A stretch of DNA of 64,000 bases from Gonapodya prolifera JEL478. Lineage: Eukaryota > Monoblepharomycota > Monoblepharidomycetes > Monoblepharidales > Gonapodyaceae. Location of the stretch: NCBI GenBank assembly GCA_001574975.1, contig KQ965799.1, forward strand, positions 62,001-126,000. Direction: 5' to 3'. Both the position numbers and the translations under genes were made by a program. Of the stretch, positions 10,572 to 14,265 are shown piece by piece (positions within the stretch are counted from its first letter, which is position 1; each line of letters begins with the position of its first letter). Under the pieces are notes generated by a model. That model was given only the letters and a program-made list of their open reading frames with translations, was not told the origin of the DNA and did not search any database.

Positions 10572-13500
10572 ATGATCATCAAGCTCGAACAGCTGCTGCA
10601 GAGATACGACATCGGAGAGACCCTTGGCACGTACGTACTCTGCTCGCTCTTGCTCGCCACTCGATTCGCTCTCACTCTCGCATCCATCCATGCTCATGCT
10701 CTGTCCCGCACGTCCCCCATTCACATCCCAATCCCTACTAACACCCTCTTACACTCTTACACACTCTCTCAATCCAACCCCAACCACCCAACCACCCAAC
10801 CACCCATCCCCACTCCCTCGACCCCCCCCCGTCCACCCGCAGCGGCGCATTCTCCGAAGTCAAGCTGGCCACAGACAAGCTGTCCCCCACGCGCCAGCAG
10901 CACGCAATCAAGATCATCGACCGCGCAAAATGCAAGGGAAAGGAGTCCATGATCGAGACAGAGGTTGCTATTCTCAAGAGGGTCAGGCACGACAATATCG
11001 TCCAGCTCGTCGAGTACTACGAGATTGAGGGAAAGATTTACTTGGTCATGGACCTGTGAGTGATCCGATCGGAGTGAGCGAAGCGAGCGGAGGGAGGACT
11101 CCGAGGCCTAGGCGCCAAACGCGCTGACCGAGGCCGTTGAGAGAAGCGAGACAAGTCCGAATACCCCGTGCGAAGGAATTTCGGTGTGCCAAGACTGGAG
11201 AAAACACAACGCAATCTATGTCGCACCACTCAGGAGAGCAGCGGAACACGTACCCGGATCCGTACTCTCTTGTTCCGCATCCTTATGCCCCACAATAACC
11301 CCCCCCCCCCCCCCNNNNNNNNNNNNNNNNNNNNNNNNNNNNNNNNGCGTGACAGGCGGCGAACTCTTCGACGACATTGTCGCGCGCGGAAAGTACACCG
11401 AAGCCGACGCCGCGCGCATCGTGTGCAAGATTCTTTCGGCTGTGGATTACTTGCATGGCATGGGGATCGCGCATAGGGATTTGAAGGTGTGTTTTGGGCG
11501 AAGTAGGGGTGGGTGGGGGGTGGTGTGGAGGGCGCTGAGGTGGAGAGCCCGACGCCTATTCGCGAAGGGCTGATCGAGGCTGTCCTCCGGAGGCGAGTAC
11601 TCCGTGATGTGGGGGATACCGGTGAGGGCACGGAATGAGTGGGACGAGAGATGTGGGAATGATGAGGCGAGATAGACAGGCGCAGACCATGAGGAACAAT
11701 CACCTCGTTTTCGGGGACCAATCTGACCTTCATCTTTCCACTAACCCACCCCCGCCCTCCCTCACACACAGCCCGAAAACCTCCTCCTGTCCGACAAATC
11801 GCGCCACCCCAAGATCATGATCTCGGACTTTGGCCTGTCCAAGATCTTCAACGAGGAGGAAGTCATGAAGACGGCGTGTGGGACGCCGGGGTACGTCGGT
11901 GAGTTTGTTAAAGGGGACTAGAGTGTTAGGGGGGGGGGGCTGAGGCGTGGAGGTAGGGTGTGTGGAAACCGAGCAACGCGATGGAGCAGATGGAAAAGGC
12001 GCGCACTCTTTCGCTTGTGTCGTCATCGCCATTCCGCAAACTCAACACTCATATCCACATCCCCTCCGACACATTTTCACAGCTCCTGAAGTTCTCAAGC
12101 GCCAGGGATACGGCCGCGAAGTCGACCTGTGGTCTATAGGCGTTATCACGTACATTCTGTGAGTCCTTTCGCAAATCACTTTCGCCCGCCTGTTTTGTAA
12201 CCATTCAATCCATCAACCTTCCCTCCAACACAGTCTCTGCGGGTACCCCCCCTTCTACGACCAGAACAACATCGAGCTGTTCAAGCAGATTCTGGCGGGG
12301 AAGTACGAGTTCGATAGGCCGTGGTGGGACAACATCAGCGAAGAAGGTGAGCGGAATCGGAGATGTTTTGCCAACAATACATGTAACCCATTACCATCCG
12401 CCATCTGCGCATCGTCTGCCAACAATCAGCCAAGGACTTCATCCGCCACCTCCTCGTCCTTGACCCCAACGCGCGGTACACGGCCAAGCAGGCCCTGTCG
12501 CACCCCTTCGTTGTGCGGTGGTGTGGAGCCCCCACGTTCGCACAGTCACCAGGCGCCTCCCCCGAGGGCCGCAACCTCGCCCCGACGGTGGCTAGGAACT
12601 TGCAGAGGGTCAAGAGCTCAAAGCAGAGCAATGGTGGGATGCAAGGGGTGAGTGAACGGGAAGCGGTCTCGCATAGCAAATAGTGACGCACCATCTAATT
12701 TCCCACTCTCCCAACCCTACCCAATCTAAACCCGCACCAGGACGAGCCCCAATCCCGCCCTCTGGGTAACCAAGGCCCCGTGGCTGACAGCGGTGTGGTA
12801 TGCCCGCCAAGAACCGCGACTGGAGGCCGCCGCCCTCCACTGGGCATGGGCATCCCTTCAGGACCGCACGAGGTGCGCGTGCTGTCACTCAACATCCATC
12901 TCCGCGTTCCCGGCGTGCGCTCAAACGGGTCGGACTTCAAGAACGCGCGGCTGGATTACTTTTGCGAGAAGGTGTTGGAGATGTACGATGTGATTTGCCT
13001 GCAGGAGATGTTTGCGTGAGTTGTGTGGAGATTTGGGGGGGGGGGGGGGGGGTTTCGGAAGTGACGGGGTGACTGCTGTGGGACCACTCGGATTTGATAT
13101 GGCTGCACTGAGTGATTACGAGGATGATGTCGATGCACATTGCAAAAGTTCCAATCTGACCTCTCACTTTCCCCGTCACCTTACCCAAACCCGTCGACCC
13201 ACCAGATACGGATCCTCCAGGCAAAGTAAACTCATCTCGCAAGCCAAAAAGCTCGGATTTGAGTACTACGTGGCCAGTCCGACGAAAGGGCTCGTTGGGA
13301 ACGGCGCCGTCGATGGGGGCCTGATGGTTATGAGTAGGTACCCCATCGTTAAGGCCGAGCGAATCACGTACAAGAGGGGAATCAATAACGACAAGTGAGT
13401 TCTGGGTGGGAAAGGGGAAAGAAGCGGAAAAGGGGAGGGGGTGATGGATTGTTTTGTTGTGGTTTGTGTCGCCACACTCCAACCACCCCGACCTCCTCCT

Positions 13501-14265
13501 CACCCCGAATCGCGGCAGATTTTTATGCAAGGGAGCAGTGTACGCCAAGGTCCAAATCGGACACCACCACTATGCGCACGTGTTCAACACTCAAGTCCAA
13601 TCTGTCGATTCGTACAACACCCCCCACACAGACCCCGCGAGCTTGCACCGCCTGTCCCAAATCCTGACGCTGAAAGAATTTGTCGACGAGTGCTCCAAAT
13701 CGATCCCGTGCAGGGACCCCATGATACTCGTCGGAGACTTTTCCCTGAACGCACGCAAGTCGCGCACCAACGGCAAGGACTCTGACGACTACGCTCTGCT
13801 GCAACGCGTTTTGCGTGGCGGAGACGAGCTCGCCGACCTCGACGAGTTGCTTGCCCCCGTCGGCGTGGAGAGCATCAAGCCAGGGCGGGTGTTCCACGTT
13901 CGTGACGTTGCCGTGGAGGCCCTCAACCAGCACCCCGTGCTCGTCGGGGACGTGGAGGATTTTACGTCGTGGAAGCCCCGCGAGACGGCGTTGACGAGCC
14001 AGGCCAACGTCGGGGTGTGCGCTTGCCCGGACTTCATGTTTGTCCTGGAGCCAGAACCCGAGCGACACTCGCCCGACGCCAAAGTCGTGCAGGTGGATCC
14101 GCGAACGTTCGCGGTGGAGAAGTTTGTCGTGCAGGGCGAGGAGTTTTCGCAGCTGTCAGGTGGGTTGCCGCGCTGGTCGGGTGTGGTGTGGTCTTAGAAT
14201 GGACTCCAACGCCCCCCGTTCCAGATCACTATGGAATGAGTGCGATCATCAAAGTCCCCAATTGA
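10572..14265 (+). CDS. CaMK1-type Ser/Thr kinase fused in frame to a neutral-sphingomyelinase-type phosphodiesterase
   Basis: Eleven exons read through to a predicted 696 residues: 10572-10630, 10843-11055, 11348-11486, 11772-11898, 12083-12158, 12234-12346, 12430-12647, 12741-13015, 13206-13394, 13519-14159, 14225-14265. Phases agree at every junction. Residues 1-280 form a complete kinase: GTGAFSEV glycine loop, HAIKII lysine, [55 protein letters not shown] short autoregulatory-like tail follows, [17 protein letters not shown], cut short relative to animal CaMKI. Residues from about 355 form an endonuclease/exonuclease/phosphatase fold like bacterial-type neutral sphingomyelinase: [42 protein letters not shown] and a terminal DHYGMSAII. 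The family hydrolyses sphingomyelin or related lipids. The fusion rests on the splice at 12648-12740, with phase 0 on both sides. Separate adjacent genes remain possible, since the intron itself carries an in-frame stop and an ATG lies at 12846. Confidence 0.8.
11101..11135 (+). repeat. Intronic palindromic repeat, copy A (kinase intron 2)
   Basis: Contains GGCCTAGGCGCC and, ten bases on, GCGCTGACCGAGG. Sense orientation relative to the gene. Confidence 0.55.
11315..11346. other. Assembly gap (32 N) inside a kinase intron
   Basis: Thirty-two N follow a run of C. The upstream exon ends at 11055 (...LVMDL, phase 2) and coding resumes at 11348 with the C that completes Leu, giving [12 protein letters not shown]. 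The missing bases are therefore intronic apart from the A of the acceptor AG. The kinase reading frame is not affected. Confidence 0.95.
11550..11598 (+). repeat. Intronic palindromic repeat, copy B (kinase intron 3)
   Basis: GACGCCTATTCGCG, then GGGCTGATCGAGGC and CCTCCGGAGGCGAG. Same order of words as the other copies. Confidence 0.5.
12648..12740 (+). other. Junction intron between kinase and lipase parts, with in-frame stop
   Basis: Good GTGAGT donor, ctaa-type branch region and pyrimidine-rich CACCAG acceptor. If retained, translation adds [11 protein letters not shown] and stops at 12681-12683, giving a free-standing kinase of 326 residues. If spliced, the frame runs into the phosphodiesterase. 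Confidence 0.7.
13035..13052 (+). repeat. G18 homopolymer in intron
   Basis: Eighteen G in a row in the intron between the first two lipase exons (13016-13205). Other long G or C runs occur at 7991-8003, 11301-11314, 11930-11939 and 50973-50984, all non-coding. Confidence 0.9.

Follow-up and report, generated by a model that had tools for sequence, protein, structure and literature searches.

Gene model and genomic surroundings

The window (the whole 64-kb stretch of DNA analysed) carries on its forward strand an 11-exon gene model, 10572–14265, that opens with the ATG at 10572 and closes with a stop codon ending at 14265. Its 10 introns are removed to give 696 codons plus the stop, with no internal stops, and the spliced model agrees with the earlier note, which had proposed a 696-residue protein joined at 12647/12741 along a stop-free path. 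All ten introns begin with GT, and an AG acceptor is readable in nine of the ten. When the 696-residue protein was searched against the 64-kb window by tblastn, it found its own exons and nothing else. The features on which the following sections draw are these:

10572–10630, 10843–11055, 11348–11486, 11772–11898, 12083–12158, 12234–12346 (+): exons 1–6
12430–12647, 12741–13015, 13206–13394, 13519–14159, 14225–14265 (+): exons 7–11
10605–12512 (+): CaMK1-type kinase domain, residues 12–270, exons 1–7
11315–11346 (no strand): gap of 32 Ns in intron 2, covering the intron-2 acceptor, of which the final G alone is visible
12570–12623 (+): basic, amphipathic stretch following the kinase domain, residues 290–307
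12648–12740 (+): bridging intron, phase 0, 93 nt, donor GTGAGT, acceptor CACCAG
12681–12686 (+): two consecutive in-frame stops, TAG TGA; retention of the bridging intron would lead the reading frame into them and leave a kinase-only product
12741–12845 (+): linker, residues 316–350, GC-rich, without coding signature
12846–12848 (+): Met351, the sole Met from the junction up to the EEP domain; the start codon in a two-gene model
12846–14265 (+): sphingomyelinase-like EEP domain, from profile, PDB, and plasmid matches

At 11297–11346 a run of C stands beside the N gap, and at 13037–13054, in intron 8, there is a run of G; the two runs are complementary over 18 nt. Both fall outside the exons, and they are possible hard spots for assembly.

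The surrounding ORFs were searched against Pfam with 30 queries, one of them an exon of the kinase–EEP gene itself, and the neighbours returned matches to muniscin, JmjC, F-box, TFIIS_M with SPOC, DEAD helicase, and DNA ligase. These matches, like the high density of introns, suggest a fungal source. The divergent upstream gene contains a piece of a JmjC hydroxylase (9155–9562, minus strand; E 3.4e-9), and on the other side an ORF convergent with the kinase–EEP gene (14673–16034, minus strand) matches the F-box profile (E 1.5e-5) and has a C-terminal part rich in Cys. Farther away, 44826–48671 (minus strand) encodes TFIIS_M and SPOC domains preceded by a weak PHD finger (E 1.8e-4, below the cut-off)—a Bye1-like domain order. 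At 35469–36173 (plus strand) there is a weak match to the WDR90/POC16 beta-propeller (E 1.1e-4; 21.9 bits, below the cut-off of 60), which, if real, would presumably represent a cilium protein and hence a flagellated organism.

The kinase domain and its C-terminal tail

Residues 12–270 match the protein kinase profile PF00069 with an E value of 6.2e-77. The top PDB match is CaMK1D (E 2.4e-101), with 155 of 264 aligned positions identical as counted from the printed alignment, and among the matches listed (the best 60 of 90 at E ≤1e-60) CaMK1D and CaMK1 rank first, followed by CaMK1G. Seven of the best eight PDB rows are named CaMK type 1, 1D, or 1G, the remaining one (1a06) being named just calcium/calmodulin-dependent protein kinase. 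The profile match and the identity to CaMK1D bear out the initial description of this half as a calmodulin-kinase-like domain of the CaMK1 type. Its catalytic motifs are intact—Lys43, HRDLKPEN at 133–140, DFG at 156–158, and APE at 180–182—and Thr171 sits in the activation loop. Because all of these elements were found, the kinase should, judging by its motifs, be catalytically active. The protein thus shares with the CaMK1 family (CaMK1D, CaMK1, and CaMK1G) a whole kinase domain, the catalytic motifs, and the activation-loop Thr, but differs from it in carrying a second folded domain C-terminal to the kinase.

A further difference lies in the tail. Residues 290–307 have a net charge of +5 and look like the autoinhibitory helix of CaMK1 proteins. 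In CaMK1-type tails an aromatic residue is the usual calmodulin anchor. Our search of residues 290–350 found neither Trp nor Phe, so the 696-residue protein lacks, in this region and in contrast to the CaMK1 family, the aromatic anchor. One weak 1–14 calmodulin-like spacing, by the usual calmodulin-motif rules, runs from Leu300 to Met313. Binding of calmodulin by this tail is doubtful from its sequence, and so is the coupling to Ca2+ signalling that had been suggested for the protein, given a stretch from 290 to 350 without Trp or Phe.

The proposed join between the two halves

Whether the two domains belong to one protein depends on the bridging intron. Its donor, GTGAGT, scores 6.97 and is the best candidate at 12560–12700, under a splice model trained solely on the introns of this gene (nine donors and eight acceptors). 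Leave-one-out scores of the gene's ten donors span 2.19 to 10.23, and the bridging donor ranks seventh, in mid-range. The acceptor is ordinary: equally good sites occur nine times per kb, and a rival acceptor at 12790 scores slightly higher, although its use would break the frame.

As a comparison we took 585 control ORF ends, leaving out those on the plus strand at 10500–14300. GTGAGT lay wholly inside the last 36 nt in nine of the 585, while a donor as good as the bridging one was present in 26. A donor, an acceptor, and 90 open in-frame codons coincided in four. These counts leave out any donor that itself supplies the TGA stop; with such donors included, 39 of the 585 ends had the donor, 35 the donor and acceptor, and eight the donor, acceptor, and open path. 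The control rates should be upper bounds, because genuine exon ends are probably among the 585. Scans for repeats, tRNAs, and Rfam families returned nothing bearing on the join, and the splice signals are its main support.

The linker contributes less. It is open in five of six frames, and 740 of 1,914 non-coding windows of 35 codons are open as well; among these open windows, 44% score at least as high as the linker under a codon model from other genes and 69% under a model from this gene itself. The linker's own scores are −0.067 and −0.492 bits per codon, respectively, and about 96% of this gene's coding windows score above it. Since five of six frames are open and the score resembles that of non-coding DNA, the open linker frame is weak evidence for the join.

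The most serious alternative to a fusion would be two neighbouring genes on the same strand, the first ending at the kinase stop at 12681–12683 and the second starting at the EEP ATG at 12846, 162 bases apart. Several observations suit it: left unspliced at 12648, the kinase frame stops 11 codons on, at tandem stops; Met351 is well placed to start a stand-alone EEP protein, as expected of a once separate gene; and the linker's codon score is that of non-coding DNA. Against it, the GTGAGT donor lies 33 nt upstream of the kinase stop, an arrangement with a counterpart in just the nine control ends given above, and the space between the two would-be genes offers none of the signals sought there: of nine poly(A)- and TATA-like words tested, none (0/9) occurs in 12501–12900. 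Five of the same nine words are found downstream of the stop codon, within 395 bases of it (14266–14660), a count uncorrected for the higher A+T content of that segment, which favours such words. We consider two separate genes unlikely.

In a variant of the single gene, the bridging intron would be spliced in some transcripts, giving the fusion, and kept in others, giving the kinase alone by way of the tandem stops. The in-frame TAG TGA, 33 nt past the start of the donor, would suit such a switch, but tandem stops can arise by chance, and a gene with two products seems to us rather improbable. A pseudogene was ruled out on the ground that the EEP exons run without a frame break in the model (with GC3 of 0.76 against 0.80 in the kinase exons likewise counted against it), a pattern that a young pseudogene would fit too.

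The evidence favours one fused gene over two, and we hold that model to be quite probable. This is a judgement rather than a matter of computed odds, and what tips it towards fusion is mostly the donor, whose presence would otherwise have to be put down to chance.

The EEP domain and its possible role

The second half is a sphingomyelinase relative. Residues 384–555 match PF03372 (E 1.5e-8; 35.1 bits, above the Pfam gathering score of 24.5), and at E ≤10 the PDB holds nine distinct sequences that match the EEP half, eight of them named sphingomyelinase, sphingomyelin phosphodiesterase, or beta-hemolysin and the ninth a nucleoporin (E 0.74). Among solved structures, sphingomyelinase C matches it best (E 6.8e-12), with SMPD3 at E 7.7e-5. 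NCBIfam returned a single row, TIGR03395 (sphingomyelin phosphodiesterase; E 7.2e-13), whose equivalog cut-off was not reached (48.6 versus 248.2 bits), and tblastn found 11 plasmid records that match the EEP domain, none covering more than 80% of it. Because the PF03372, PDB, TIGR03395, and plasmid matches score as they do, this kinship, read from sequence, is real but distant. The original designation as a neutral-sphingomyelinase-type EEP fold is correct at family level, on the PF03372 and PDB matches. Neither the kinase nor the EEP match can be ascribed to chance.

Scans with exact short peptide patterns covered viruses, bacteria, and archaea and say nothing on fungi; for the EEP domain, they matched eight stretches in viral contigs and 58 in bacterial and archaeal contigs, and for the kinase one stretch in viral contigs, with no relatives among any of them.

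The active site is where the EEP half departs from its relatives. Asn366, Glu404, Asp543, Asp684, and His685 are retained, so that the domain resembles SMPD3 and sphingomyelinase C in sequence and in the active-site Asn, Glu, Asp, and Asp-His. Unlike these enzymes, however, it has Gln495 where sphingomyelinases have the catalytic His of THxQ and Ser545 where they have the Asn of GDxN, and it is fused to a kinase and falls far below the TIGR03395 cut-off. The substitutions were read from alignments to a Kitasatospora and a Streptomyces locus (soil actinomycetes; two of the 11 plasmid records), and His→Gln and Asn→Ser also appear in five PDB alignments (of nine rows), which comprise two Bacillus-type and three beta-hemolysin sequences and are not five independent families.

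In the numbering of the Bacillus cereus enzyme, Gln495 would correspond to His151 and Ser545 to Asn197, as aligned, while the metal Glu and the Asp-His pair (Glu53 and His296 in B. cereus) are matched by Glu404, Asp684, and His685. According to the parts consulted of a study of bacterial sphingomyelinases (PMC9710629), Asn16 and Asn197 of the B. cereus enzyme hydrogen-bond the metal-coordinating water, the edge metal site is formed by Phe55, Asn57, Glu99, and Asp100, and the central metal-binding residues are more than 99% conserved across 276 putative bacterial enzymes; the acid-base residues are given as His151 and His296 in the title of a paper cited there. With Gln495 and Ser545 in place of the catalytic His and the GDxN Asn, the EEP domain has probably lost its hydrolase activity or kept little of it, although the metal-site residues that are kept may leave scope for some activity.

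These substitutions bear directly on the proposal of the earlier note, a fused and working bifunctional enzyme that joins a kinase to a sphingomyelinase. In its favour are the five retained residues and the example of one Streptomyces sphingomyelinase with Gly330 at a central metal-site position, which points to a tolerable change at that site (PMC9710629, in the parts consulted). But the replacement of the THxQ His and the GDxN Asn recurs in the five PDB alignments and at both actinomycete loci, and 48.6 bits against a TIGR03395 cut-off of 248.2 argue in the same direction. On this sequence evidence we regard a bifunctional enzyme as the least probable of the alternatives discussed. The EEP domain had been called complete, a description that its active site (Gln495, Ser545) does not sustain, and direct production of ceramide by this half, for the same two replacements, is unsupported and appears doubtful.

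We lean, if only just, towards one gene whose product combines a CaMK1-like kinase with a probably impaired sphingomyelinase-like EEP domain that serves as a lipid-binding or regulatory module. A single gene would encode the CaMK1-type kinase followed directly by the EEP domain. The kinase, intact by motif, might be switched on through phosphorylation of Thr171 by a CaMKK-type kinase, a mode of activation suggested by the position of this residue in the activation loop. A short autoinhibitory-like helix without the aromatic calmodulin anchor would lead into the EEP domain, which, with most metal-site residues kept and hydrolysis probably dead or weak, would have a task other than making ceramide: it is predicted to bind a phospholipid or sphingolipid headgroup, or metal, and as a membrane-targeting module it could place, tether, or gate the kinase. 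In a bolder form, which we offer tentatively and think on balance somewhat unlikely, the calmodulin switch of a CaMK1 kinase would have been replaced by a dead sphingomyelinase domain that reads membrane lipid—a lipid-gated kinase with a lipase fold as its sensor.

Among the matches listed from open-licence papers, none describes a kinase paired with a sphingomyelinase or EEP domain, in line with the initial view that the pairing is undescribed. In the parts consulted, a 2026 survey of sphingolipid proteins in fungi (PMC13161914) reports that SMPD3-like homologues are ubiquitous throughout the fungal lineages and that those of ISC1 are confined to non-flagellated fungi; those parts mention no kinase fusion, and the word 'fusion' is absent from the main text. 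The sections consulted of a study of protein families in early-diverging fungi (PMC8778642) name kinase-domain families and neither PF03372 nor Exo_endo_phos. A partial parallel is SCAMK of Metakinetoplastina, in which an SnRK3 kinase has been joined to a calmodulin-like gene (PMC5924475, in the parts consulted): there too, gene fusion added a domain to a calcium-signalling kinase, but the partner is calmodulin-like, whereas here it is lipase-like.

Even as a plain fusion, this gene would therefore present a domain pairing not met among the literature matches listed from open-licence papers. Neutral sphingomyelinases are known as enzymes; if the preferred reading is true, a kinase-borne copy that has lost catalytic residues would show the sphingomyelinase fold put to new use, as a sensor or tether, and would couple the state of the organism's lipids directly to CaMK-type signalling.
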